NCBI GenBank assembly: GCA_025350665.1 | Contig: JANXXJ010000293.1 | Coordinates: forward strand, 1 to 58,600 | Reading direction: 5' to 3' | DNA from: Gemmatimonadota bacterium | GTDB lineage: Bacteria > Gemmatimonadota > Gemmatimonadetes > Gemmatimonadales > GWC2-71-9 | DNA: 58,600 nucleotides | Part shown: positions 1 to 58,600 of the stretch, one piece after another | Layout: each line of letters starts with the position of its first letter | Numbering within the stretch: the first letter of the stretch is position 1 | Translations under genes and position numbers: made by a program | Notes under the pieces: model-generated | Databases searched by the model: none | Told to the model about the DNA's origin: nothing | The model's input: only the letters and a program-made list of their open reading frames with translations

Positions 1-326
1 GGAACACGCTGACGTCGGCCGGCGCCAACCGCCAGGACAACTACAGCGCCGGCCGGGCGGCCGGGTTTTACAGGCACGGCTTCACGAAGGCCAGTTTCTT
101 CCTCCAGAATCTCGAATTGATTCCGAACTTCGACAACAGCACGGACTTCCGGGTCAACAGTGAGAGCGCCTTCGTGGCGCCGATTTCAACCCGCATCGGA
201 CTCAAGCTTGGGTATGTCGTCCGCTATGATAATCTTCCGGGATTCAAACCAGATCCCAACCCGACGGGTGCCCGGTTCAAGAAAGCCGATCGGTACTTGA
301 CGGCGGGTATTTCCATCTCGTATTGA
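1..326 (+). CDS. DUF481-type outer-membrane protein, C-terminal part
   Basis: Only about the last 107 codons are present. The frame is entered at base 3 and ends at a stop at 324-326. The sequence alternates polar and hydrophobic residues as in outer-membrane beta-strands, contains a GYVVRYDNLP-type hairpin, and ends in an aromatic residue (ISISY), as barrel proteins do. The GYVVRYDN...TDRYLTAGISISY-like ending resembles DUF481/YdiY family proteins, which are salt-inducible or uncharacterised outer-membrane barrels. The start and signal peptide lie outside the window. The next gene begins 12 bases after the stop, so co-transcription is likely. Family assignment is moderately sure; function is unknown. 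Confidence 0.6.
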   Translation, partial: NTLTSAGANRQDNYSAGRAAGFYRHGFTKASFFLQNLELIPNFDNSTDFRVNSESAFVAPISTRIGLKLGYVVRYDNLPGFKPDPNPTGARFKKADRYLTAGISISY

Positions 327-337
327 TCGGGGACATC

Positions 338-1252
338 ATGGTGCTCGCTCTGTTCGCCGGCCTGATGGCCGTCACACCCACCCCGCCCATCCTGGTCGGC
401 CGCTGGGATTTGACCGTCGTCGGTTCCCATGGCCGGTATCCGGCATGGTTCGAAATCGTCCAGGCCGGCGATTCGCTGGCCGGCCGATTCCAGGGCCAAT
501 TCGGACACGCAACACCGGTGGCATCTGTTTCGACCCCAACCGGCCGCTTCCGATTTGTCTGGCCGAACGAGGACGATCCCAAGGCACCGGCCACCGTTGT
601 CGAGGGTCAGGTCGCCGGTGGGTCAACCATCACCGGCGCGTTGGTGCCGGTGTCGGGGGCGCGGGAGCCATTCCGTGGGGTTCGGGCCCCGGCTCTCAAT
701 CGACCTGGAGTGCCGTCATGGGGCCGTGGCATTGATCTGCTTCAGGGCGGTCTGACGGGCTGGAGGGTTCGCGACGGCAAGGCGTCGGGCTGGAAAATGG
801 TGGCCGGCGTTCTGACGAACGATGGACCCAGCGCCGATCTGATCAGCCGAGGTCTCTTCGACGATTTTCGGCTTCATGTCGAGGTCAACATTCCGCCGAA
901 CGGTAACAGCGGGATCTACCTGCGAGGGCGCTACGAGGTCCAGGTGCTGGACGGCTATCCCCAGTCGCCTGGGTCGCGGCGGATCGGCGGAGTCTACGGC
1001 CAGGTCACACCCACTTCACACCCTGCCAAGCCGGCCGGTGAATGGCAGACATTCGATATCACGCTGGTTGGCCGCCGGGTCACCGTGGTGCTGAACAGTG
1101 TCACGATCATTGACGGTGTCGAGATCCCGGGGATCACCGGCGGTGCCCTCGAGAGCAACGAAGGGGCCCCCGGTCCGGTGATGCTGCAAGGTGATCACAC
1201 CGCGATACAGTTTCGGAACATCCGGATCGAACCGGCCCATGACGGGTCATGA
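338..1252 (+). CDS. Secreted DUF1080 (3-keto-glycoside hydrolase-like) protein
   Basis: This 304-residue protein has a short hydrophobic signal peptide (about residues 1-17). A roughly 110-residue beta-rich N-terminal region is followed by a DUF1080 jelly-roll domain (about 125-300). The DUF1080 core is visible as NGNSGIYLRGRYEVQVLD, with GVYGQ and WQTFDI further on. DUF1080 members include enzymes acting on 3-keto-disaccharides, and in many genomes they sit beside Gfo/Idh/MocA oxidoreductases and TIM-barrel isomerases, as here. ATG 338 is preferred over an upstream TTG (323) because it begins the signal peptide directly. Activity as a 3-keto-glycosidase is inference from family and neighbourhood. 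Confidence 0.75.
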   Translation: MVLALFAGLMAVTPTPPILVGRWDLTVVGSHGRYPAWFEIVQAGDSLAGRFQGQFGHATPVASVSTPTGRFRFVWPNEDDPKAPATVVEGQVAGGSTITGALVPVSGAREPFRGVRAPALNRPGVPSWGRGIDLLQGGLTGWRVRDGKASGWKMVAGVLTNDGPSADLISRGLFDDFRLHVEVNIPPNGNSGIYLRGRYEVQVLDGYPQSPGSRRIGGVYGQVTPTSHPAKPAGEWQTFDITLVGRRVTVVLNSVTIIDGVEIPGITGGALESNEGAPGPVMLQGDHTAIQFRNIRIEPAHDGS

Positions 1253-3951: not shown

Positions 3952-5274
3952 CTAGAGCTTGCGGGTTCGCATAGTCTTGGGATCGAATCCGAACGCCGAT
4001 CCTTCCCAGATCGACCGGGTCGCGAGATCGACCGCCACCATGACTCTTGCTGCCAGTTCCACCGGACTCGGCGCCGGAGCGTGGCTTCGAATGGCATTGA
4101 GCCACTGGATGCGCAGCTGGTCCTGATCGTCACCGTGGTCTTCGCCCTCGAAGTTCTGCTCGTCGACCTGGTCGGCGAAGACTCGCTCAGGGCGGATGGT
4201 GACGTTCCGGCTTCCCCCAACGTACAGGTTACCCTTGTGTCCCCGAATCACCGTTTCGAATCCGACTTCGTTGGAGGTCGAGCCGGCCACGATCATCGTG
4301 TGCTCGCCCTCGAACTCGATCGCGATGTTCACCTGGTCGTGGTTTTCCATCACCTTGTCCACATAGTGACCACCTGACGCGACCACCCGCGTCGGCCACC
4401 CGACGTCGAGCGCCATCAGGAGCGGGGTGATCCGATGCACCAGCAGGTCACCGATGATGCCGGTGCTGTATTTCCGGTACCGGCGCCACCGCGCATAGAT
4501 CTCGGGATTCCACGGAATTTCTCCCAGGCCCCCGCACCACTGCTTCCAGTCGAGATTGACGCCTGGCTCCCAGGTCGGATCGATGGCGTAGTACAGCCAC
4601 TCCCCGTCCTTCGAGTTGCGACAATACGATGTCTGACTCCAAACCGGCTTGCCGATGGTACCGGCCTTCACCAATTCCTGGGCCTTCCGGTAGCTCGGCA
4701 TCACGACGAACTGGGTACCGACGTTGATCAGTGCTTGCGGATTGGAGCGCACAACCTGGAGGAGCCGCAACGCCTCGGGCAATCGAAGCGTCATCGGTTT
4801 TTCCAGATAAACCGCCTTGCCGGCGGCGACAGCAGCCTCTGCCATCGGGGCATGCCAGTGCTCCGGCGAGGCAATGACGACGCCGTGCAGATCCTTCCGG
4901 CCGAGGAGCCCGTGAAAGTCGGCATAGTGTGTCTCCACGGTGCCGGCACCCTGGATTGCCTCGAGCTTCTGGCGGGCGGCGTCGAGCCGCGGACGACAGA
5001 CGTCCGAAAGCGCCACGACCCGCACGGCCGCGCGCCCGTCCTTGCCGATCGTCGCGAAGGATTCAACGTGTCCCGTTCCCATACCGCCGGTACCAATCAC
5101 GCCGATATTCAGCGGTTCGTCGTCCGCCACGGCCGGTCGCGGGGCCGCCCGGGTGACCGGCGCCGCGAGTGCGGTCGCGATGGCCTCGTTGGTCCGGGCC
5201 AGCGACAGAACACCTGATCCCATCGCCACCCGAGTGGAACGGGCGAGAAAATCGCGTCGGGTCGTGTCGGTCAT
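3952..5274 (-). CDS. Tat-exported Gfo/Idh/MocA family oxidoreductase
   Basis: This 440-residue protein has a twin-arginine signal ([10 protein letters not shown] plus hydrophobic and Ala-rich region to about residue 45). The Rossmann motif [12 protein letters not shown] is at about 57-68. The catalytic EKP motif is intact ([11 protein letters not shown]), and [15 protein letters not shown] supplies the usual substrate-domain histidine. Exported members of this family act on glycosides or sugar derivatives in the periplasm with a retained cofactor. Its ATG overlaps the stop of the upstream isomerase gene (ATGA at 5271-5274), indicating translational coupling. Substrate is not predictable from sequence alone. 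Confidence 0.9.
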
Positions 5275-6146
5275 GAGGCCATCTCGATCTGCAGGTGCTG
5301 GAGGAGGCGGAGTGTGCCGATGATGCCCTCGCGCTCAGTCAACCGGTCGCCCTCGAACTCGATGCCGACCCACGAATGAAACCCCGCATCGAGCACGATC
5401 TTCATCAGGCGGCGGTAATCCTTGGTCGTCTCGTTTCCAAAGCCGTCGAAATCGTGAGTTTTGGCGCTGACTGCTTTGGCAAAGGGCATCATGTCCCGAA
5501 CCCCTTGATAGCGATCGTATTCGTAGAAGTTTCCGAAGTCCGGCAGGGTGCCGCAGCGGGGCTGATTCACCAGTCGCATCACGCCGGCCAGCCAGTCGCC
5601 GTGGGACGACAGTCCGCCGTGATTTTCGACGACCACGTTGAGATTCATCGGCATGGCGAATTCCGTCAGCCGCCGAAGCCCGTCGGCCGCAAGTTTCTGC
5701 TGCTCCTCAGGCGTGCCGCTGCTGGCAGCGTTGACCCGGATCGTGATGCACCCGAGGGTCCTGGCGGCGTCGAGCCATTTGCGATGGTTGTCGACCGCCC
5801 GGGTACGCCTGGCATCGTCGGGGTCTCCGAGGTCGCCTTCGCCATCGCACATGATGAGGTGCTGGAAGACACCTTCGTCGCTGGCCCGCCGGTTCATCTC
5901 GGCCAGATAGGCCGCGTCGCGGGCCCGGTCCTTGAAGAACACGTTTACATACTCGATCGCTTCAATTCCGAAATCACGACGGGCGATCGTCGCGAAATCG
6001 AGGTGGTCGATTTCCTTGGCAAACAGTGCCTTGTGGAGTGACCATTGCGCGAGAGAAATCTTGAACGGGGCCGCGGGCAGCATGCGGGTCATTGAGGGCA
6101 AGGACAGGGCGGCGGCCGTGCCGGCCAGAAAATCACGACGTTGCAT
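5271..6146 (-). CDS. Tat-exported sugar phosphate isomerase/epimerase-like TIM barrel
   Basis: This 291-residue protein from ATG 6146 opens with [13 protein letters not shown], a twin-arginine signal. The body is an AP-endonuclease-2 type TIM barrel with [11 protein letters not shown] near the start, NVVVENHGG carrying a metal-ligand glutamate in the middle, [17 protein letters not shown] and WVGIEFEGD near the end. In 3-keto-glycoside pathways, relatives of this family act as 3-keto sugar lyases, hydratases or isomerases, and this gene is coupled to an oxidoreductase. Specific activity is inferred only. Confidence 0.85.
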
Positions 6147-6204: not shown

Positions 6205-7701
6205 CTAGCGGGGCACGCGGCCGAGGCGGGCGCCTTCGAACCGGATGGCCTGAACGGTGCCGCCGGCACCGATTTCGAACGTAACCGGGGCGGTACCCTG
6301 CCACGCGTTGTCCCAGCGGGCTCGAAAGGTATCGAAATGCCAATGTTCGAGCGCGGCGTGAAGCTGGGAGCTCTGCCTCAGGCCGAGAGCCCCGTTCTCG
6401 GTCACGATCTCGACCCGGCCGAACAGAGAGTCAGCGTAGGTGCCGGCGTAGGCCTCGAGCGCCAGGGATGGCCTGGTCCCGGGAACCCGCTGCCGTTCGG
6501 CCTTCGCCTGCGCGCTGTCGCCTTGGGCGCCGATCTCGCGGTAGACGGCCAGCAGCTCCGTGCTCCAATCCCGGGCTGGCCCGCCAAGCCAGGTATCAAA
6601 GGCGCGGTACATCAGGGCGTGGCGAGCCTCGACATGATCGAGGTTGGCCAGCACGTACACGCCCAGGCGCTGCTCTGGAATCAGGCCGATGATCGCAACC
6701 ATTCCGTCAATGCTTCCAGTGTGGAACTGCACCATCTGGCCCCGGTAATCCTGCTGGAACCAGCCCATGCCGTAGGTCGTCCAATGAGGCTTGGTGAGCT
6801 CCCGCGACGGATAGAAGCCAGAGGGCGGGACCATGGTCTGGGGTCTGAACAACTCGGCCCAGGTTGATGGTTTGAGCAGGGCGTGGCCCTCGACCCGGCC
6901 GGAATCGATCATGAACGCGGCCCACTTCGCCATATCGGTCACGCTCGACCAGACCGACCCGGCCGGCGCCACCGGATCCACGGCGGCGTTGGTGATGACC
7001 CGAGGCACGCCGGCGATCCGGAAGTGCGGCGCCGCGACGTTCAATTTGCCGATCGTACCGGCCAGCGTGGCCACCGTGCTGGTCATGCCGAGCGGCCCGA
7101 AGATCCGGGTCTCCACGAAACGGGTCCACGGCATGCCACTGGCCGCCGCCACGATGGCCCCGGCCGCTGCGTACATTACGTTCTGGTAGATGAACGAGGA
7201 TCGCAGCGAGTACCCCGAAGGGATGAACCTGGCGCGGCGGAGTACTTCGGCCGGGGAGTTGTCATTCCGATACCAGAGGACATCGCCGTTGACCAGCCCA
7301 GCCCGGTGGGTGAGCAGGTCGCGAACCGTGACTTCGCGGGTAACGTAGGGGTCCGAGAGTTCGAAGCCCGGGAGATACTTGGTCACCGGGTCGTCCCAGC
7401 GAACTTTGCCTTCGTCCACCAGCATGCCGATGGCCGCGGCGGTCATCGCCTTCGTAGTGGAGCCGATGGCAAACAGGGTGTTGGCGTCGGCCGGATCGGG
7501 GCGGCCGAGTTCGCGAACCCCATACCCCTTGGCAAAGATCGTCTTGCCGTCCTTGACGACCGCAACCGCGAGGCCGACGGCACCCCAGTCCTTGACGGCC
7601 TGTGCCGTGTAGGCATCAAAGGCTGCCACCTTGGGGTCGGGGGTCTGGGCGGCGGCGGTCGTCACCGTTCCGAGAGTCAGGATGGCGAGAAATGTTTTCA
7701 T
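6205..7701 (-). CDS. Secreted class C beta-lactamase-like serine hydrolase
   Basis: This 498-residue protein from ATG 7701 has a signal peptide ([19 protein letters not shown]). Family motifs are in order: SxxK as GSTTKAM with the nucleophilic serine, YxN as IYQN, and HTG as [10 protein letters not shown]-terminal domain of about 110 residues resembles DUF3471. Such proteins are esterases, D-aminopeptidases or peptidases far more often than antibiotic-resistance enzymes. It is the first gene of the minus-strand run, 58 bases upstream of the TIM-barrel gene and divergent from the oxidoreductase at 7812. Confidence 0.85.
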
Positions 7702-7811
7702 GGGCCGGACCGGATCGAGGGGACAGGGAATCTGCGCCAAATGTACACAAACCCGTTGCGGACCTCAGCCAGTGGGCTAGCTTCCCTGCGCCCTCACCAA
7801 CCCATCGGCCA

Positions 7812-9071
7812 ATGCCCAAGCGACTCGGGGTCGGTTTCATCGGCAGCGGTTTCAACGCCCGCTTCCACATGCTCTCCTGGCAGGGCGTCCGCGATGCGGA
7901 CGTTCTCGGTGTCTGGAGCCCCAATCGAAGGAACGCCGAGAGCGCGGCGCGCTACGCCCGGTCGCTCGATATCGGCGATTGCCGCGCCTACAAATCGATC
8001 GCCGATATGGTGGCCGACCCACGGATCGACGCCATCTGGCTCTCGGGGCCGAACCAGGCCCGCATCGAGAACGTCGAGGAGATGGTCGATCCCATTCTCC
8101 GAGGCCGGGCGGAACTGATCGGGGTGGCCTGCGAGAAACCGCTGGCGCGCAACGTGGCGGAAGCGACCGAAGTGACGACCCTCGTGAAACGGGCCGGCCT
8201 GATCCACGGATACCTCGAGAATCAGTGCTTCTCGCCTCAGGTCGAACGCGGCCGGGAGCTGCTCTGGGCCCGCGGGGCCGCCTTGACCGGCCGGCCCTAT
8301 CTCGCCCGGGCCGCCGAGGAGCACAGCGGGCCTCACATGCCCTGGTTCTGGCAGGGCAAGCTGCAGGGCGGCGGGGTGCTCAACGACATGATGTGTCACT
8401 CGGCTCTGGTGGTGCGGCATCTGCTGACCAAGCCGGGCGATGATGTGAGCACAGTTCGCCCAGTGCGGATCACGGGGCATGTCGCCAGCCTCAAGTGGAC
8501 CCGGCCCGAATACGCCCGGCGCTTGACCAAGGCCATGGGACCGCAGGTGAATTACACCAGGGAACCGTCCGAGGACTTCGCCAGCGTCATGATCGAGTTC
8601 GAGACGGCCGACGGGTACCGGGTCTTTGGCGAGGCAACGACCTCCTGGAGTTTCGTCGGCGCCGGGCTCCGACTGTCGGCCGAACTGCTGGGGCCGGAAT
8701 ATTCCATGTCGTGGAATACCCTGGACAGCGGCCTCAAGCTGTTCTTCAGCAGGGAGGTCCAGGGCCGTGCGGGTGAAGACCTGGTGGAGAAACAGAACGC
8801 CGAAATCGGTTTGATGCCGGTGGTTGCCCAGGAAGCGGTGGCCTACGGGTACGAGGGCGAGAACCGCCATTTTGTCCGGGCCTTCCTGGGCAAGGAGAAG
8901 CCGCGGCTGACATTCGATCACGGGCTCGACGTCGTCCGGGTGCTGATGACCGCGTATCGGAGCGCGGAACTGGGCCGCACGGTGGAATTTCCGCCCCCGG
9001 GGTTGGGCCGGTTCGTACCGGATGTCGCCAAACGAGGCGCGAAGCTTCCCCGAGCCCGCACCGGACGTTAG
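7812..9071 (+). CDS. Cytoplasmic Gfo/Idh/MocA family oxidoreductase
   Basis: This 419-residue protein starts directly with KRLGVGFIGSGFNARFH, a Rossmann motif with no signal peptide, so it is probably cytoplasmic, unlike the two exported paralogues nearby. The EKP motif is intact (VACEKPLARN). The region GGGVLNDMMCHSALVVRHLL is the substrate-domain helix with histidine. ATG 7812 is chosen because it immediately precedes the Rossmann strand. The MFS permease follows 36 bases later, suggesting uptake of a product and its intracellular reduction or oxidation. Confidence 0.88.
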   Translation: MPKRLGVGFIGSGFNARFHMLSWQGVRDADVLGVWSPNRRNAESAARYARSLDIGDCRAYKSIADMVADPRIDAIWLSGPNQARIENVEEMVDPILRGRAELIGVACEKPLARNVAEATEVTTLVKRAGLIHGYLENQCFSPQVERGRELLWARGAALTGRPYLARAAEEHSGPHMPWFWQGKLQGGGVLNDMMCHSALVVRHLLTKPGDDVSTVRPVRITGHVASLKWTRPEYARRLTKAMGPQVNYTREPSEDFASVMIEFETADGYRVFGEATTSWSFVGAGLRLSAELLGPEYSMSWNTLDSGLKLFFSREVQGRAGEDLVEKQNAEIGLMPVVAQEAVAYGYEGENRHFVRAFLGKEKPRLTFDHGLDVVRVLMTAYRSAELGRTVEFPPPGLGRFVPDVAKRGAKLPRARTGR

Positions 9072-9107
9072 ACCTGCGTTGCAGACCCAACACCCCGGAG
9101 GTTGACG

Positions 9108-10382
9108 GTGACTGGCAAGATGGGACGCCTTTCGGTCATGATGTTTCTCCAGTACGCCGTGTGGGGCGCCTGGCTGCCCTTGGCGGGTCGATACCTGTCG
9201 GCGCCGGCGCAAAATGGCGGGCTGGGGTTTTCCGGGGGCCAGATCGGGCTGATTCTGGGCCTGGCCGGATCCATCGGCGCCATCGCCTCGCCGTTCATTG
9301 CCGGCCAGCTGGCTGATCGGTACTTCAACACCGAACGGTTCCTGGGTTTGCTGCTTGCGATCGGTGGGGTGATCAAGTGGGTGACCGCAGGCCAAACCGG
9401 TTTCCAGGCGTGGCTCTACCTCTCGATTCTGTACAGCGTCGTTTACATGCCGACCCTTGCGCTCTCGAATTCGATGGCGTTTGCCCACCTCGACAACCGG
9501 GACCAGCAGTTTCCCAGGGTCCGGGTCTGGGGCACGATCGGTTGGATTGCGGCCAGCTGGATCTTTCCGATGCTCTACCTGCAGAGCCAGCTTCACGTTC
9601 AGTGGATGCCGCCGTTCCTCGTGGGCCCTGAAAAAGCAAACGTCACGGCCCATCTGGCGGATTCCCTGCGCTTTTCCGCGATGATTTCGTGGGGTTACGC
9701 GATCTTCTGCCTCTTCCTCCCGAAGACGCCGCCCAAACGGGACGCGGTGGAAAAGCTGGCATTCGCCAAGGCCTTTCGCCTGTTGAGAGAACCGTCGTTT
9801 GCGGTACTGGTCGCGGCGAGTCTGCCGATCAGCATCATCCATCAGATCTATTTCATACAGACGCCGCCGTTCCTGTCGCACCTCGGTCTGCTGGACAGCC
9901 AGATCGGACCGGCTATGACTATCGGACAATTCAGCGAAATCGCTGTCATGGGAATGCTGGGGTGGATGCTGACCCGCTTCGGCTTCAGGACGGTTATCAC
10001 CCTCGGTGCCTTCGCCTATTTCGCGCGGTACTTCCTGTGGAGCCTGCCGGGCCTGCCTCCGTCAGTCCAGGTGATGACGCAGGCGCTCCACGGGATCTGT
10101 TACGCCTGTTTCTTCGCCGGTGCCTTCATCTATGCGGACCGGATCGCTCCACCAGACATTCGGAACTCGGTCCAGACGGTCTTCGGCATCATCATTCTTG
10201 GAGGAGGACCGGTACTCGGTGGGGTCCTCTCCGGCTGGCTCGCGGACCACTATGCGATGTCAGCCGGCGGAGTCGATTTTGCCGCGCTGTGGCGGGTTAC
10301 CGCCCTGATTGGGCTTGCGACCGCGGTGTTGTTCTACCTCTTCTTTCGCGAACGTCGACCAGCACCGGAGTCCACGGCGTAG
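9108..10382 (+). CDS. MFS permease, nucleoside:H+ symporter (NupG)-like
   Basis: This 424-residue membrane protein has about 12 hydrophobic segments. GTG 9108 lies 6 bases after GGAGG; an upstream TTG (9102) is too close to that site. The N-terminal LSVMMFLQYAVWGAWLPL and the loop DRYFNTER resemble the NupG/nucleoside H+ symporter group, whose environmental members often import sugars or glycoside products. It follows an oxidoreductase gene and precedes a TonB receptor, which supports a role as the inner-membrane step of one uptake route. The substrate is unknown. Confidence 0.85.
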   Translation: MTGKMGRLSVMMFLQYAVWGAWLPLAGRYLSAPAQNGGLGFSGGQIGLILGLAGSIGAIASPFIAGQLADRYFNTERFLGLLLAIGGVIKWVTAGQTGFQAWLYLSILYSVVYMPTLALSNSMAFAHLDNRDQQFPRVRVWGTIGWIAASWIFPMLYLQSQLHVQWMPPFLVGPEKANVTAHLADSLRFSAMISWGYAIFCLFLPKTPPKRDAVEKLAFAKAFRLLREPSFAVLVAASLPISIIHQIYFIQTPPFLSHLGLLDSQIGPAMTIGQFSEIAVMGMLGWMLTRFGFRTVITLGAFAYFARYFLWSLPGLPPSVQVMTQALHGICYACFFAGAFIYADRIAPPDIRNSVQTVFGIIILGGGPVLGGVLSGWLADHYAMSAGGVDFAALWRVTALIGLATAVLFYLFFRERRPAPESTA

Positions 10383-52221: not shown

Positions 52222-53376
52222 ATGGTCAGATTCGCCGCTGTGCTCGGCGCGCTCATCGCGATGGCGCCGCCGGTTGTGGCCCAGTCGAGGCCCCGGGCGC
52301 GGGATCTCGGCGTGGCGCCCGGCGAGTTCCGCCCCGGTTCCCGGAACGCCATCACGGACGTAGCCGGGGTCCGGGTCGGTCAAGTCACCGTGACCGAGGG
52401 CGACTCGGTCCGGACCGGCCTCACGGCGATTTTTCCGCACGCCGGCAATCCGTTTCTCGACCGGGTCCCGGCCGCGATTGTCGTCGGGAACGGCCATGGC
52501 AAGCTCCTCGGATCGACTCAGGTCGCGGAGCTGGGTGAGCTCGAGACGCCGATTCTGCTCACCTGCACGCTCTGCGTGTGGAAAGCCGCCGATGCCATGG
52601 TGGGCTGGCTGCTCGAACAGCCCGGCATGGACAAGGTCTACTCGATCAATCCTCTGGTGGGCGAAACCAACGACGCCGGGCTGAACGCGATCCGGTCCCG
52701 GCCAATCACGCCGACCCAGGTGCGAACGGCACTCGAGTCAGCCTCGACCGGGGAGGTGGCGGAAGGGTCCGTCGGCGCCGGGGCCGGAACCACGGCGTTC
52801 GGCTGGAAGGGCGGGATCGGTACCTCATCGCGGAAGTTGCCGGGCGCCCTGGGTGGCTGGACCGTCGGTGCTCTGGTTCAGAGCAACTACGGCGGCATCC
52901 TCCAGATCCTCGGCGTTCCGGTCGGCCGTGAGCTTGGCCGGTACTCATTCCAGCATGAGATCGAGAAGGAGCCGGGCGCCGGCTCGATCATGATCGTCGT
53001 CGCGACGGATGCGCCGCTCGACGATCGGAATCTCCGCCGCCTCGCGACCCGGGCATTGCTGGGCCTTGGCCGGACCGGATCGTTCATGGGCAATACGTCG
53101 GGCGACTACGTGATCGCATTCGCGACCCATCCCGCCGTCCGCCGTCCCCTGCCTGACGCCGCCGCCCGGCGGGACAGCCTGGTGTCCGGCCGCCGGGAGC
53201 TCGCGAACCAGGAAATGTCGGCGTTGTTCGAAGCCGTGGCGGAGAGTACCGAAGAGGCGATTTACAACTCGCTCTTTCGCGCGACGATGGTGTCAAGCCG
53301 GTTCGGCACGGTGGAGGCGCTGCCGATCGACCGGGTGACGGCGGTTCTCAGGAAATACCGCGCGATCGAACGTTAG
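52222..53376 (+). CDS. Secreted P1 (DmpA-type) aminopeptidase
   Basis: This 384-residue protein has a signal peptide (VRFAAVLGALIAMAPPVVAQ). It starts the domain with RARDLGVAPGEFRPGSRNAITDVAGVRVGQ in segments typical of DmpA, followed by SINPLVGETNDAGLNA and GSVGAGAGTTAFGWKGG. The self-cleavage site making alpha and beta chains is probably the Gly-Ser in RTGSFMGNTSGDYVIAF, with EEAIYNSLFRA near the end. DmpA enzymes release N-terminal D- or L-amino acids or beta-amino acids from short peptides. The ending overlaps the convergent crcB gene by four bases. Confidence 0.9.
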   Translation: MVRFAAVLGALIAMAPPVVAQSRPRARDLGVAPGEFRPGSRNAITDVAGVRVGQVTVTEGDSVRTGLTAIFPHAGNPFLDRVPAAIVVGNGHGKLLGSTQVAELGELETPILLTCTLCVWKAADAMVGWLLEQPGMDKVYSINPLVGETNDAGLNAIRSRPITPTQVRTALESASTGEVAEGSVGAGAGTTAFGWKGGIGTSSRKLPGALGGWTVGALVQSNYGGILQILGVPVGRELGRYSFQHEIEKEPGAGSIMIVVATDAPLDDRNLRRLATRALLGLGRTGSFMGNTSGDYVIAFATHPAVRRPLPDAAARRDSLVSGRRELANQEMSALFEAVAESTEEAIYNSLFRATMVSSRFGTVEALPIDRVTAVLRKYRAIER

Positions 53377-53756
53377 GCGCCGGCCCGTCCGGCCGCCGCC
53401 CAGCCGGCGAGGGCGAATCCGCCGAAGACGGCCGCCACGGCGAGGATGCCGGAGAGCCCGCCGTAAACGGCTGCCCGGCCGAACTCGCCCTGCTCGATCA
53501 GGGCCGCCACTTCGATGCTGAAGGTGGAAAACGTCGTATAGCCCCCGCAAAACCCGATCGTGAGGAAGGCTTTGGCTTCGGGTGACCAGGCCGCAGTCAG
53601 CGCGGCGTAGCGAGCCACAAACCCGAGGATCAGAGAGCCGGTCACGTTGACGAGCAGCGTCGCGATCGGCAACGGCGTGGGTCGAGCGAAGGCGATTGCC
53701 ACGAGATAGCGGGCGACGCCCCCCAGGGCGCTGCCCAGCGCGATGAACGGAATCAT
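53373..53756 (-). CDS. crcB: Fluoride channel CrcB/Fluc
   Basis: This 127-residue protein has four transmembrane helices, forming a dual-topology dimer that exports fluoride. The family boxes GGVARYLV, LPIATLLVNVTGSLILGF and FLTIGFCGGYTTFSTFSIE are all present, including the Asn and the phenylalanine box. The usual G-x-x-G-T-TFSTF reads GFCGGYTTFSTF. No fluoride riboswitch fits in the 41-base upstream gap, so it is probably read with the upstream small gene. Confidence 0.95.
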   Translation of the reverse strand: MIPFIALGSALGGVARYLVAIAFARPTPLPIATLLVNVTGSLILGFVARYAALTAAWSPEAKAFLTIGFCGGYTTFSTFSIEVAALIEQGEFGRAAVYGGLSGILAVAAVFGGFALAGWAAAGRAGA

Positions 53757-53797
53757 GGCTGAAATCTACTATCCCGGCGCTCGGGGCCGGGGCTGGT

Positions 53798-54283
53798 TCA
53801 GAGACGAACCCGGGCTTTGGGAGGAGCCGCCAGAACCTGATGGATAGCCGCAACGACGAAGTCGTCGTCGCTCCACAGGACGAGCTCGCCGCCGCGAGGC
53901 GAGGGTCGGAACAGGCAGCGGATCGATCCGCGGTGATCGATCAGAACCTGGATCGCGGGGAGGTCGGTTCGAATCGTCCGCACGCTGCGGAAGTCACCCC
54001 GCCGGATGGCCGCCGCGTTCTCCAGCAAATGGAGTCTGATCAATTCGACGGCGACCAAATCCCCCCGGGGGTCCGCCATCGAGATCCGCCCGCCGCTTTC
54101 ATTCGCCGTATATCCGACCAGTGGAGCGAAGGCGGCGGCGCGCGACACTGCAGAATTCTGCGCGTGCCCAACCGTCGCCGCGCAACATGCAATGGCCGCC
54201 CAGACCGCCAGGTGCCGCGCCAGCTGGTTCAGGGCGCCACCCATGGTGTGGGCCGGCACTGATTTGGATCCGATGTGATTCAT
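53798..54283 (-). CDS. Uncharacterised secreted protein
   Basis: The protein has 161 residues from ATG 54283, which has a GGAAGGG stretch about 10 bases upstream; ATG 54244 would begin just before the signal peptide (LAVWAAIACCAATVGHAQ) and is an alternative. The mature part is mixed alpha/beta (VAVELIRLHLLENAAAIRRGDF, LPAIQVLIDHRGSIRCLFRP, LVLWSDDDFVVAAIHQ). No family is recognised. It lies between crcB and the amidotransferase gene on the same strand. Confidence 0.55.
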   Translation of the reverse strand: MNHIGSKSVPAHTMGGALNQLARHLAVWAAIACCAATVGHAQNSAVSRAAAFAPLVGYTANESGGRISMADPRGDLVAVELIRLHLLENAAAIRRGDFRSVRTIRTDLPAIQVLIDHRGSIRCLFRPSPRGGELVLWSDDDFVVAAIHQVLAAPPKARVRL

Positions 54284-54361: not shown

Positions 54362-55120
54362 TCAGCGCCCGAAGCGGGCGGCGGCTTCGGTGAAGGTGTG
54401 GAACAGGTGCCGCGTCCTCGGATCTTTGACTTCGAGAACTTCCGGGTGCCATTGAACGCCGACCACGAAGCCGTCGCCAGGCCGTTCGACGGCCTCGACC
54501 AAGCCGTCGGGGGCGAAGGCCGCCGGGATCAAGTCGTGTCCGAGGCGCTTGAGCCCCTGGTGGTGCATGCTGTTGACCGTCACCCGCCCGGCGCCGAACG
54601 CCGTTGCGAGCCGACTGCCGCCGGCCAGCTCGACCTCGTGAGCCAGGTGATCGCGCTCGAAGCCGGCCGTCGGGAAATAGTCATGCTTGATCGCGTTGGG
54701 CAGTTGATCTTCGAGGTCCTGATGGAGGGTGCCCCCGAGGGCGACGTTGATTACCTGGAGGCCCCGGCACAGCCCGAGCAGCGGCTTGCCGTCTTCGATT
54801 GCCCACTCGGCCAGTTGCAGTTCGACGGCGTCTCTGGCAGGGTCGGTATTTCCGAGCTTGGGATGCGGCATCTCGTGATACCGAGCCGGCTCCATGTCCA
54901 CGCCGCCGGCAAGGAGAATCCCGTCCAATCGTTCGTAGACGCAGCGCAATGTATCCGGGTCGTCGTGGATCAGCGGAACCATCCAGGGAACCGCGCCCGC
55001 ATCGGTCGCGGCGTAGAAGTACCGCTGGTTCATGACCCAGGACGCCGGCAGCCCGCCGGGGATGCCGTCGATGGCCTGCAGGGTCTGGGTCGGTATGCCG
55101 ATCGTCGGCCGGTATTTCAT
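54362..55120 (-). CDS. Class-I glutamine amidotransferase-like / gamma-glutamyl hydrolase (PuuD-like)
   Basis: This 252-residue peptidase C26 protein has Cys118 in LLGLCRGLQVINVALGG and His and Glu in VVGVQWHPE. In E. coli PuuD cleaves gamma-glutamyl-GABA. Here it closes a cluster of amide-forming ligases, so it may remove a gamma-glutamyl group or trim a ligase product. It lies 80 bases downstream of the GCS2 gene, with an 11-bp hairpin between, which could lower its expression relative to the ligases. There is no signal peptide. Confidence 0.9.
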   Translation of the reverse strand: MKYRPTIGIPTQTLQAIDGIPGGLPASWVMNQRYFYAATDAGAVPWMVPLIHDDPDTLRCVYERLDGILLAGGVDMEPARYHEMPHPKLGNTDPARDAVELQLAEWAIEDGKPLLGLCRGLQVINVALGGTLHQDLEDQLPNAIKHDYFPTAGFERDHLAHEVELAGGSRLATAFGAGRVTVNSMHHQGLKRLGHDLIPAAFAPDGLVEAVERPGDGFVVGVQWHPEVLEVKDPRTRHLFHTFTEAAARFGR

Positions 55121-55160
55121 GGCGCCGTCAAGATAATCAGGGTAAGAGGATCATCGGCAC

Positions 55161-55196
55161 GGGTGGCCCGGAACCAAAGCAAGGCCCGGGCCACCC
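55161..55196 (-). terminator. Perfect 11-bp intercistronic hairpin
   Basis: 55161-55171 pairs exactly with 55186-55196 around a 14-base loop, in the 80-base gap between the ligase and amidotransferase genes. No U-run follows on the minus strand. It may be an attenuator or mRNA-stability element. Confidence 0.5.
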
Positions 55197-55200
55197 GGCC

Positions 55201-56307
55201 CTACAGGGTACCCTCGGCCGTCTCAACGATGAGCTGGTCGACCACGGCCTTGAGGTCGCCGGTCCGCTCGAACGTGGCCAATTGGCGGTCGGCGCTGGTC
55301 CCGTTCTCGAAAATGGTGAAGGCGTACTCGACCTCTTTCCGACTGCCGAGCTCGTCGAGAACGTCATCGACGAACCATTCGATCAGCTCCCGGATCAGGG
55401 TCCGGGCCGGCAGCTCCCTGCTCTTGCCGAAGTCGATCATCTTGCCGTCGAGTCCATACCGGCAGGCCCGCCACTTGTTCTCTTCGATGAACGTCGCCGA
55501 ATACTGGCGCCAGCTCAGGTTGTCCCGGCGGAGCTTCCAGACCTTGGCGATGATCGCCTGGAACAGCGCGGCGACGCAGACGGCCTCGTCCACCCGGGTG
55601 CAGACATCGCAGATCCGCATCTCGAGCGTGGGATAGCTCCAGCTGGGCCGAATGTCCCACCAGATCTTCGACGCATTCGGAATGCTGCCGGTACCGACCA
55701 GGGTGTTGACGACATCCTCAAACTCGCTCCACGAATGGAGGCTCCGAGGAATCCCGGTCCGGGGAAAGCTCCGGAACACAATGCTTCGATACGATTTGAG
55801 ACCGGTCTTCCGGCCCAGCCAGAACGGCGAACTGGTCGAGAGGCAGAGCAGGTGCGGCATCATGTAGCGCACCGCGTTCATCGCCTCGATGAGGAATTCC
55901 TTGTCCTCGATACCCACGTGGACGTGGGTGCCGAAGATCAGGAGCCGCTGAGCCAGTTCCTGGAGGTCCTCCTTGACACCCATGTAGCGTTCGAGCGGGG
56001 TTATCTCCTGTTCCAGCCAGCTCGAGAACGGATGGCTGCCCGCGGCCACGACCTTGAGGCCGTTCTTGGCTGCCAGATCCATGACCAGGCGTCGGAGCCG
56101 GACCAGTTCGGCGCGGGCTTCGGCCGGGGTATGGCAGACCTTGGTGCCGACCTCCACCATGGACTGGTGCAGCTCCGGTTTGATCTCGCCCAGCAGCACC
56201 GATTCTTCCTTGAGAATTTCGGTGATGTACGAGCGGAGCTCCCGGGTCTGGGGGTCGATGATCTGGTACTCTTCTTCGATTCCGATCGTAAGGCTGGGCG
56301 GTTTCAT
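55201..56307 (-). CDS. GCS2-type glutamate-cysteine ligase-like carboxylate-amine ligase (YbdK-like)
   Basis: This 368-residue protein from ATG 56307 begins LTIGIEEEYQIIDPQTRELRS, the GCS2 signature with metal-binding Glu residues. HPFSSW, FGTHVHVGIEDKE and SYPTLEMRICDVCTRVDEAV follow in family order. The family joins an amino group to the gamma-carboxyl of glutamate using ATP (YbdK makes gamma-glutamylcysteine weakly). The gap from the permuted ATP-grasp gene is 46 bases. Together with two other ligases and an amidotransferase it probably builds a small peptide-like metabolite; the partner amine is unknown. Confidence 0.92.
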   Translation of the reverse strand: MKPPSLTIGIEEEYQIIDPQTRELRSYITEILKEESVLLGEIKPELHQSMVEVGTKVCHTPAEARAELVRLRRLVMDLAAKNGLKVVAAGSHPFSSWLEQEITPLERYMGVKEDLQELAQRLLIFGTHVHVGIEDKEFLIEAMNAVRYMMPHLLCLSTSSPFWLGRKTGLKSYRSIVFRSFPRTGIPRSLHSWSEFEDVVNTLVGTGSIPNASKIWWDIRPSWSYPTLEMRICDVCTRVDEAVCVAALFQAIIAKVWKLRRDNLSWRQYSATFIEENKWRACRYGLDGKMIDFGKSRELPARTLIRELIEWFVDDVLDELGSRKEVEYAFTIFENGTSADRQLATFERTGDLKAVVDQLIVETAEGTL

Positions 56308-56353
56308 CAGGGCCGTTCCGGTTGAGCTGAAAGGTGAAAGACGGAACGGCCGG

Positions 56354-57700
56354 TCATCGCGGCTCGACGACGAAGGTCGGCACGGTGGAGCCACCGCCTG
56401 CCGTCACGTTCACGAGGGTTGCGGTTGACACCCGGGTGAGGCAGCCGTCCACGAACGCGCCGTCGAAGCAGAATGGCGCGGTGTCGACTATGCGGTCGGC
56501 ATAGACAACGGCCCCGTCGGCCAGGCTCGGGAAGGTTTCGGACGGGAGCCCGATTCGGCGCTGAACGATGTACGGCTGCTCCAAGGCCCGGGCAACTTCC
56601 GTCGCCCATCGGCCGTCCTCCACTTCCCAGCCGAGAATGACGCCGGCCCCACCGTAGTCGTCGTTCGGTTTGAGCACCAGCTGGTCGCGGTTGGCCGCGA
56701 TGTAGGGAAGAAGGTCGATGGTCTTGCCGTCGAGCCTGGTGGTCCGCTCTTCGACCACCCGGGTCCAGGGCACGTGGTCATCGATCACCGAGCGTTCGGC
56801 GGTCGTGAACAGATGATGGTTGCGTTCGTCGCTCAGGACGGCGAGGCTGGCCTTCTTGTGGAGGATCTTGGAGCGGAACGGGTTGACCATGCAGACGGCG
56901 CCGTCCCGAACGGCCCGGACCATCGGGTGATCCAGGCCGCCCTGCTCGATCAACTCGTTGATGAGCACCCGTTTGTAGATCAGGTCGATGCGAACGCCCT
57001 CGGAGTAGAGTCCGCCGTCGTGATAGTCCACCTCGCCCGGGTCGCCGATGATGCATTGCAGGCCCAGGCCGGCGAAGTAATCCCGGAACAGGCGGAACTC
57101 GCTCTGGGTCGGCACTTCCTTCCAGTCGAGGATACCAATGGTCGGTCTTTTCGACCCGCCGGAGAACCGGCGATACGCCTCGAGGAGTGAATGGAGCACG
57201 TGATGCCGGACCGGGAGCGGACTGATCGCGAAGCGGGACCGGAATCCGCGCAGGGCGGGCAGCGCCAGAAAGAGCTCCGTGAGCGCATCGTTGTAGCCCG
57301 AGCCGGCGGGGGTCTCGGCGTTGTACTCCGTGAACCGAAGCCGGCCATCATCGGGCGAGAAGAATGCATCGAGTCGCGAGACCGGCGATGCCACGGTCTT
57401 CGGATCCTCCAGCGCCAGCGTTCGCTCCCAGGGCTCCAGCCGGAACTGGTCCAGGACGGCCGGATTGGCGATCGCCGCCGCCAGGGCGGTGTCGAACGCG
57501 CCGAGCAGACTGCCGATCCGGCTCCGCATCTCGTCGTACTGATGCCTCGCCAGAAAGCGGGGCCTCAGGACGGTGCACAGTGGGCGGTCGCCGAAACGGA
57601 GCCCGCGTCTCGCCAACTCGGCATGGAGCCATTCGCCTGACTCGACGCCGATCGGGCCGTCGAGCGCTGCATGCCAGGCCTCGATGGCCGGGTCCGTCAT
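56354..57700 (-). CDS. Circularly permuted ATP-grasp ligase
   Basis: This 448-residue protein has the permuted order of CP-ATP-grasp enzymes: substrate part FTEYNAETPAGSGYNDALTE early, a middle Rossmann region (RPTIGILDWKEVPTQSEF), MVNPFRSKILHKKASLAVL, and the ATP-binding block LVLKPNDDYGGAGVILGWE near residue 360. ATP-grasp enzymes activate a carboxylate as acyl-phosphate and join it to an amine. Its ATG overlaps the stop of the preceding ATP-grasp gene (ATGA), so both are made in a fixed ratio. Confidence 0.88.
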   Translation of the reverse strand: MTDPAIEAWHAALDGPIGVESGEWLHAELARRGLRFGDRPLCTVLRPRFLARHQYDEMRSRIGSLLGAFDTALAAAIANPAVLDQFRLEPWERTLALEDPKTVASPVSRLDAFFSPDDGRLRFTEYNAETPAGSGYNDALTELFLALPALRGFRSRFAISPLPVRHHVLHSLLEAYRRFSGGSKRPTIGILDWKEVPTQSEFRLFRDYFAGLGLQCIIGDPGEVDYHDGGLYSEGVRIDLIYKRVLINELIEQGGLDHPMVRAVRDGAVCMVNPFRSKILHKKASLAVLSDERNHHLFTTAERSVIDDHVPWTRVVEERTTRLDGKTIDLLPYIAANRDQLVLKPNDDYGGAGVILGWEVEDGRWATEVARALEQPYIVQRRIGLPSETFPSLADGAVVYADRIVDTAPFCFDGAFVDGCLTRVSTATLVNVTAGGGSTVPTFVVEPR

Positions 57701-58600
57701 GCCGGTCCGGGGCGCACGGGCCGGCCCTTGAGAAAATTCTCCCAGCTGGGCCGGGGTGTGGCCGGGGGCGCCTTGGCGAGGCGGATCGCCATGTCAGCCA
57801 TCGCCTTGACGACCCACTCGAAATGGGTCGGCGTCAGAGAGTGGATGTCCATGTCGGGGGCTGGATTCATGAAGTCGATCGCGTAGGGAACTCCGTCCCG
57901 GATCGCCCATTCGATCGAGTTCATGTCGTACCCGAGTGCCCGAACCAGCGTCAATGAGTCGGCGACCACGCGATCGTGCAGTGCCGTGGGGAGGAAGTCG
58001 AGTTCAGGATGATATTTCCGGGCCTTGGGGTCGTACTTGATCGGATAGATGACTTCCTGGCCGATGCACAGGCAGCGAACGAATTCGTCCCATTCGATGA
58101 ATTCCTGCACGATCATCGTGAGCAGCCCGGACCGGTCGTAGTTGTACAACAGCTCTTCGAGGCTTCGGCAGACGTAGACTTCTTTCCATCCGCCGCCGTG
58201 GGCGTCCTTGAGAATGCAGGGCAGTCCCACATGGTCGACGATCGCCTGCCAATCGAGCGGAAACTCCAGGTTTCGCAAACTCTCCGTGTGGACGATGCCA
58301 GGGACGTATTCCTTGTTCGGCACGACGACCGTTTTCGGACTCGCGAGACCGAGCGAGGTCGCCAGCGTCGCGCCGAAGAACTTGTCGTCCGCGGTCCACA
58401 TGAAGGGATTGTTGACGACAGTGGCGCCCCGCAGTACCGCGTGCTTGAGGAAGGTCCGGTAGAACGGGACCTCGTGAGAGATCCGGTCGATGATGACCCG
58501 GTACTCCGCCGGATCGTCCATGTGCGGCGCGCCGACCTTCACGAATTCGGCCACCACACCTTCGTGACGACTGTTGACTTCCTCGATAAACGCCGGGGGC
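57697..58600 (-). CDS. ATP-grasp ligase, partial (runs off window)
   Basis: The open frame continues past base 58600, so the N-terminus is missing; 301 codons are visible, and GTG 58557 is not taken as start because the frame upstream (PAFIEEVNSRHEG) continues naturally into it. The ATP-grasp fold shows PFMWTADDKFFGATLATSLGL, the lysine and glycine loop LKDAHGGGWKEVY, VQEFIEWDEFVRCLCIG and the metal-ligand end IDFMNPAPDMD. It resembles D-Ala-D-Ala ligase/RimK-like proteins. It begins the visible part of a four-gene ligase cluster. Confidence 0.85.
   Translation of the reverse strand, partial: PPAFIEEVNSRHEGVVAEFVKVGAPHMDDPAEYRVIIDRISHEVPFYRTFLKHAVLRGATVVNNPFMWTADDKFFGATLATSLGLASPKTVVVPNKEYVPGIVHTESLRNLEFPLDWQAIVDHVGLPCILKDAHGGGWKEVYVCRSLEELLYNYDRSGLLTMIVQEFIEWDEFVRCLCIGQEVIYPIKYDPKARKYHPELDFLPTALHDRVVADSLTLVRALGYDMNSIEWAIRDGVPYAIDFMNPAPDMDIHSLTPTHFEWVVKAMADMAIRLAKAPPATPRPSWENFLKGRPVRPGPA

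Follow-up and report, generated by a model that had tools for sequence, protein, structure and literature searches.

The window (the whole stretch of DNA analysed here, 58,600 nucleotides) is positions 1 to 58,600 of contig JANXXJ010000293.1, from the Gemmatimonadota assembly GCA_025350665.1. At its end, on the minus strand, lie four genes designated ATPG, CPG, GCS2 and GAT. They encode three putative amide ligases of different families and one putative gamma-glutamyl hydrolase. Two esterase genes, EstA and EstB, accompany them in this or in other genomes. The co-occurring enzymes probably make one small peptide-like compound. Features of the cluster:

ATPG, 57697-58600, minus strand: ATP-grasp ligase of the RimK/LysX/ArgX fold; its start codon lies outside the window.
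CPG, 56354-57700, minus strand: circularly permuted ATP-grasp ligase of the GspS/YgiC/glutathione-synthetase fold.
GCS2, 55201-56307, minus strand: YbdK-type carboxylate-amine ligase, NF010039/PRK13515; start placed at the MKPPSL of the orthologs.
GAT, 54362-55120, minus strand: class-I glutamine-amidotransferase fold, peptidase C26/PuuD-like hydrolase with a Cys-His-Glu triad.
Overlap, 58524-58600 of the window: 77 bases identical to the first bases of contig C88 of the same genome.
EstB, C88 positions 252-1001, minus strand: 72% identity to the PF00756 esterase found in a genome of the same genus.

All four reading frames are open and lie between 54362 and 58600 in the order, and on the one strand, given in a preliminary description made from the letters alone. 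ATPG and CPG are coupled by a 4-base ATGA overlap, as also described there. Intergenic gaps are 46 bases (CPG-GCS2) and 80 bases (GCS2-GAT). A longer alternative open reading frame (ORF) of GCS2, starting at GTG, reaches 56394. The window end is the contig end, and the 5' end of ATPG is thereby cut. A search of the same genome with an ATPG ortholog located the missing part: the edge of C88 encodes ATPG residues 1-43, including the start codon and the first ~18 residues, and the next gene on that strand, upstream of ATPG, is EstB. The run in the source genome is therefore EstB-ATPG-CPG-GCS2-GAT, and the cluster extends beyond the window, as had been supposed. Gene calls on C88 and at the loci of relatives come from a simple codon-usage caller, which may miss or trim genes. 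The 77-base identity is probably an assembler overlap, which makes the two contigs likely neighbours. Genes from both sides of the contig break are also adjacent in three same-genus loci (L018-L020).

GCS2 matches the Pfam family of the same name with 193.7 bits (cut-off 21). It is a full member of NCBIfam NF010039 (PRK13515), with 528.1 bits against a cut-off of 371, a level also reached by five orthologs from three other phyla (491.9-535.3 bits). It falls under every glutamate-cysteine ligase equivalog cut-off listed (PRK13517/PRK13518 models, gshA_cyano), the best score being 366.3 bits against 409. Enzymes of the GCS2 family are glutamate gamma-carboxylate:amine ligases. GAT belongs to Peptidase_C26 (PF07722; 206.6 bits, cut-off 20.5). 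Its best-scoring NCBIfam equivalog is PuuD (NF008471), at 114 bits and below the cut-off of 266, which points to gamma-glutamyl amide chemistry. ATPG and CPG reach no NCBIfam cut-off. Both also remain under their Pfam cut-offs (ATPG against RimK, 19.5 bits vs 21; CPG against CP_ATPgrasp_2, PF14403, 25.1 bits vs 32, with 28.0 for an ortholog) and are thus distant relatives of these families. Against TIGR00768, the RimK alpha-L-glutamate ligase family, ATPG scores 36.3 bits vs 143.4, and an ortholog 27.9.

The catalytic motifs, described earlier as intact, are also conserved. The GAT triad C118, H225 and E227 is invariant across 29 sequences, and R109, D111, E125, N127 and K344 of CPG are invariant across 59. 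The first four of these CPG residues presumably match the phosphate and metal ligands of GspS.

Because the window copy of ATPG is cut, its fold was read from a model of L050, a full-length ortholog with 92% identity (predicted local distance difference test, pLDDT, 88.9). The top structural match is RimK 5zct (Z 22.7, root-mean-square deviation, rmsd, 2.8 over 260 residues), followed by ArgX 3vpb (Z 22.5) and LysX, with D-Ala-D-Ala ligases close behind. Identity to RimK, LysX and ArgX, which are glutamate or aminoadipate ligases, is ~15%. The model of the window CPG (pLDDT 94.3) matches E. coli YjfC 7uk6 (Z 31.7, rmsd 3.3 over 366 residues), YgiC (31.5) and GspS (30.1), with rmsd 3.0-3.3 over 357-369 residues for the three and an identity of 13-16% only. 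Homoglutathione synthetase, GspS and human glutathione synthetase lie within ~1.6 Z of the two top matches, and the E-64 ligase Cp1B (9cjn) matches at Z 26.2. Families missing from these match lists are not evidence of absence. The glutathione-like or spermidine-peptide product proposed earlier is not established by these matches, the CPG fold being equally near peptide-spermidine ligases and glutathione synthetases.

Among ortholog loci from Gemmatimonadota relatives, ATPG, CPG and GAT stand together in 9/9 and GCS2 joins them in 8/9; in locus L026 the positions of GAT and GCS2 are swapped. At 23 further loci of the phylum ATPG adjoins CPG in all and GCS2 in 22, the exception being L036, where the sequence ends ~740 bases past GAT. 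The gene set is patchy: CPG has a match in 118 of 395 Gemmatimonadota genomes at E<=0.001, with ~103 orthologs at E<=1e-70. ATPG was found in 40/40 CPG-positive vs 1/40 CPG-negative genomes, and a GCS2 ortholog (at least 63% identity) in 39/40 vs 1/40; these genomes were picked by handle, not at random, and CPG is complete or nearly so in all positives. Remoter relatives of GCS2 (34-48% identity) are present in two CPG-positive and three CPG-negative genomes. The lone CPG-negative exception, G005, belongs to the genus of the window and carries a decaying cluster. In its remnant (locus L131, C1:380000-396000, ~7152-9539) ATPG is spread over two frames, CPG is gone and GCS2 has no N-terminus. 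This joint loss supports a dedicated pathway. The remnant keeps GAT, 74% identical over 251 residues.

Searching named genomes with an alignment of ATPG gave at least 542 relatives; the best 80 loci were kept and are not a random sample. They comprise 38 Gemmatimonadota, 25 Chloroflexota, 2 Promineifilum, 11 Planctomycetota, 2 Acidobacteriota, 1 Rubrobacter and 1 ANGP1, and overlap the Gemmatimonadota genomes above (L050/G004, L051/G006, L122/G039, L129/G027). Adjacency was counted only at loci with enough flanking sequence (of the 80: 75 for EstA, 71 for EstB, 66 for CPG, 55 for GCS2, 44 for GAT). Beside ATPG and on its strand lie CPG in 63/66, EstA (a 239-residue esterase) in 70/75, GCS2 in 34/55 and EstB in 22/71. 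ATPG, CPG, GCS2 and GAT occur all together in 16/44. Unlinked copies are frequent: the three genomes without an adjacent CPG all carry it elsewhere (58-62% identity), and of the 21 genomes with sufficient sequence but no GCS2 at the ATPG locus, 18 have it elsewhere (51-70% identity). Among 121 Chloroflexota genomes ATPG is present in 32; GCS2 at 49% identity or more is present in 30 of these 32 vs 0 of the 89 others, often unlinked. Fisher values are tiny, and since related genomes are not independent, weight is placed on the repeat of the pattern in two phyla and not on p-values.

Across phyla the common core consists of EstA, ATPG and CPG. GCS2 accompanies it almost always, even from an unlinked position, and GAT is a frequent accessory. 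At least one alpha/beta-hydrolase, which is EstB in the source genome, also belongs to the module. In the genus of the window EstA is not beside the cluster, and the rest of the source genome yielded nothing closer than a 29% relative. That three different amide ligases form one system, as first suggested, agrees with their near-perfect co-occurrence in two phyla. Failure of the genes to co-occur in relatives had been set beforehand as the refuting test; the ligases were found to co-occur in both Gemmatimonadota and Chloroflexota. As a unit, the four-gene set holds in part: the ligases stay together, whereas the shared core includes EstA and the full set of four is found in a minority of loci.

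ATPG is 61-92% identical to one ortholog in the window and at 53 other loci from five phyla, taken from the best 80 of at least 542 (alignment of 55 sequences without L100, plus the window). Matches to another ortholog in Chloroflexota range down to 48%. Conservation this strong points to a single, fairly uniform product and not to one that differs from strain to strain. A tree of joined ATPG and CPG was obtained by a quick search with Shimodaira-Hasegawa-like approximate likelihood ratio (SH-aLRT) support only, and 14 of its 64 inner branches are drawn open. The presence of GCS2 switches several times on it. One ATPG was compared with a plasmid collection and gave no match.

The reading favoured on balance is a dedicated pathway, independent of nonribosomal peptide synthetases (NRPS), for one small peptide or pseudopeptide. 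From the genes, folds, motifs, linkage and co-occurrence the following reactions, order and product are proposed. GCS2 would activate the gamma-carboxylate of glutamate and join it to an amine or amino acid, giving a gamma-glutamyl amide. CPG, like GspS/YgiC or glutathione synthetase, would activate the free C-terminal carboxylate of this compound and join a second amine. ATPG may add a further amino acid or act on the other carboxylate. Cleavage of the gamma-glutamyl bond by GAT would serve for recycling or, in the manner of a protecting group, as the last deprotection step. The PF00756 esterase or esterases may hydrolyse or transfer an ester on substrate or product. In the known families, GspS and relatives of glutathione synthetase ligate gamma-glutamyl peptides at the C-terminal carboxylate, RimK-fold enzymes ligate amino acids and C26 enzymes hydrolyse gamma-glutamyl amides. 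Glutamate is put on and later removed in putrescine use and in butirosin synthesis, and the same logic would explain a GCS2-type ligase and a C26 hydrolase in one operon. A broader version is offered more tentatively, namely that EstA-ATPG-CPG-GCS2 makes a widespread, undescribed intracellular peptide or pseudopeptide in Gemmatimonadota, Chloroflexota, Planctomycetota, Acidobacteriota and Actinomycetota, tied to alpha-glucan storage in some of the Gemmatimonadota; it would possibly be a new compound class with its own biosynthetic logic.

Several observations weigh against the dedicated pathway. GAT adjoins the cluster, on the strand of ATPG, in no more than 23 of the 44 loci with room, no genome-wide search for it having been made. 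GCS2 was not found in the CPG-positive genome G006, nor in G407, G413 and G417 among the 21 genomes searched; G417 and G006, which have a 69,158-base contig in common, are probably the same genome. In Chloroflexota the genomes G431 and G443 carry ATPG but lack GCS2. The 49% cut-off for GCS2 in this phylum was chosen after the data had been seen; four ATPG-negative genomes carry a relative of 46-48% identity, and at any match with E<=1e-50 the count becomes 30/32 vs 18/89. A shared fold does not fix the reaction of an enzyme.

The module has further partners in some genomes. Two additional ATP-grasp genes (~405 residues) lie near it in 9 of the 80 best loci, as stepwise amide formation would lead one to expect. 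Eight of them, all Gemmatimonadota (L080, L096, L099, L103, L106, L107, L114, L129), have GlgA, GlgP or GH57 within 10 kb of ATPG. The ninth, L092, has the two extra ATP-grasps alone, without glycogen genes. In L099, L103, L106 and L114 the order runs one way: GlgA, one or two GH57, two ATP-grasps, EstB, EstA, ATPG, with CPG and GCS2 next where the contig continues. Glucan genes co-directional with ATPG (GH57, with glycogen synthase in 4/5) stand 5-10 kb upstream of it in these four loci and in L107. The two esterases are inverted in L080, and L129 has its GH57 genes downstream, in the opposite orientation. In L026, outside the best 80 loci, GlgA and GlgP are convergent with the cluster. A leucyl-aminopeptidase-like gene, named from sequence, adjoins unlinked GCS2 in four Chloroflexota-type loci.

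Other readings were weighed against the dedicated pathway; they overlap with one another and with it, and their probabilities need not add up to one. Conjugation to a polyamine or other amine is an unlikely one. Here GCS2 and CPG would link a gamma-glutamyl peptide with a polyamine, and the C26 hydrolase would release it, as in Puu or glutathionylspermidine metabolism. PuuD as the best equivalog of GAT agrees with it, as do the top CPG matches YjfC and YgiC, termed peptidylpolyamine synthetases in PMC12568646. GAT, however, is well short of the PuuD cut-off, GspS activity is absent from YgiC according to PMC12506659, and the closeness of GspS and the human and homoglutathione synthetases to the top matches leaves the acceptor undecided. 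The typed neighbours include no recognisable polyamine gene, and the window genes typed in Pfam include none of the Puu pathway. Replacement of glutathione by another low-molecular-weight thiol is judged quite improbable. In that case GCS2 would make gamma-glutamylcysteine, CPG would be the glutathione synthetase, and the esterase would resemble S-formylglutathione hydrolase, an enzyme of PF00756. The CPG fold does match eukaryotic glutathione synthetases (Z ~30), and the Pfam family of GCS2 includes glutamate-cysteine ligases. The gene set is nevertheless too patchy to be expected of a main redox buffer, which makes such a substitute less likely; GCS2 misses the glutamate-cysteine ligase equivalogs, and no thiol-using enzyme was recognised among the typed neighbours.

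Protein tagging, in which ATPG would extend a protein or carrier at its C-terminus, CPG would cap the added residues, and C26 or S8 peptidases would remove the tag, is likewise considered improbable. In its favour, the best ATPG matches are RimK and the pair LysX/ArgX, the latter acting on a carrier protein, and a subtilisin-like protease gene lies upstream of EstA in 9 of the 80 best loci, all Chloroflexota, with NCBIfam matches below cut-off. ATPG is far under the RimK family cut-off, though, and GCS2 is not known to ligate proteins. Nor did a plain scan for a carrier gene, or for a precursor gene of the graspetide kind, support tagging: among 1082 small ORFs within ~5 kb of the 80 best loci none is common to more than four, and those four loci are closely related. 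The scan recovered truncated ~40-residue N-termini of GCS2 in three loci; it may miss or trim genes, a very variable precursor or a fast-evolving carrier would escape it, and a carrier more than ~5 kb away lies outside its range. Decoration or control of a storage alpha-glucan, with the ligases and esterases making a peptide or pseudopeptide attached to glycogen or signalling for it, would be rather surprising. It draws on the eight glycogen-gene loci, of which seven are co-directional with ATPG, with the two extra ATP-grasps between, and on the convergent GlgA and GlgP of L026. Seven of the eight, all save L106, which is absent from the ATPG+CPG tree, fall at three places in it. All eight are Gemmatimonadota, none being seen in Chloroflexota or Planctomycetota loci, in the window or in the first 15 kb of the upstream contig; L129 has its GH57 genes reversed. 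That the genes are neighbours by chance, with unconnected roles, is hardly credible. Paralogs of CPG and GCS2 do exist elsewhere, but linkage and co-occurrence across phyla extend to unlinked genes; chance linkage was rejected on the co-occurrence in two phyla and the retention of unlinked GCS2 and CPG. A defence role was rejected too, six proteins having no match to any PADLOC family of known anti-phage defence at E<=0.001.

Among the closest known systems, YgiC, YjfC and GspS share the circularly permuted fold of CPG; none of them is known to have a GCS2, RimK-fold ligase or PF00756 esterase partner. LysX/ArgX systems use a LysW-like carrier, and none was found near ATPG among the small ORFs scanned. 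GAT shares the family and Cys-His-Glu triad of PuuD and other C26 gamma-glutamyl hydrolases. Iyer et al. (Mol Biosyst, 2009) reportedly surveyed operons that combine ATP-grasp enzymes, ligases resembling glutamine synthetase, and peptidases, the predicted products being small peptides or tags. A tagging system in that survey is said to place a circularly permuted ATP-grasp beside an alpha-E domain, an NTN-hydrolase or a transglutaminase. None of these partners is present among the seven window proteins searched in Pfam; most genes upstream and at related loci are untyped. Cp1B of the fungal E-64 pathway has a CPG-like fold and is an NRPS-independent ligase joining a small dicarboxylic acid to an amino acid; its partner is an ANL-family amide synthetase, not a GCS2 or RimK-fold enzyme, and standalone ligases of this kind serve as biocatalysts (PMC12568646). 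NRPS-independent amidoligase pathways are thus already known, and this combination with EstA, and its spread, was not found described. Titles and abstracts of the papers listed gave no description of the gene set; the survey of Iyer et al. lay outside their coverage, and novelty is not certain. No substrate is given in the name of the NF010039 (PRK13515) model, to which GCS2 fully belongs. In the genomes studied GCS2 goes with ATPG and CPG, and this co-occurrence gives PRK13515-type GCS2 proteins partners and makes their function directly testable. The phyla with the module are common in soil, sludge and freshwater and are yet poorly understood.

Near a contig end the source genome carries another circularly permuted ATP-grasp, a paralog with 31% identity to CPG (L004, contig C19, ~5217-6107). 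Its 7.2-kb contig has no match to ATPG or GCS2. A Nif11-like leader-peptide ORF with a GG motif is found at L110:5417-5659, and also in L116, L118 and L119, ~1 kb from an ATP-grasp gene. Judged by sequence, it may belong to a separate cluster for a ribosomally synthesised and post-translationally modified peptide in these four related Anaerolineae-type loci. Downstream of GAT in the window follow an ORF of 161 residues that matches nothing in Pfam or NCBIfam, a CrcB fluoride channel gene and, on the opposite strand, an S58 peptidase gene. Rfam at gathering score gave no match in the window or in the first 15 kb of C88, and no fluoride riboswitch came up to the threshold. An S58 match was not found in L131. 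The order of the S58 peptidase, CrcB and small ORF (window 52222-54283) is kept in three same-genus genomes (L018-L020).

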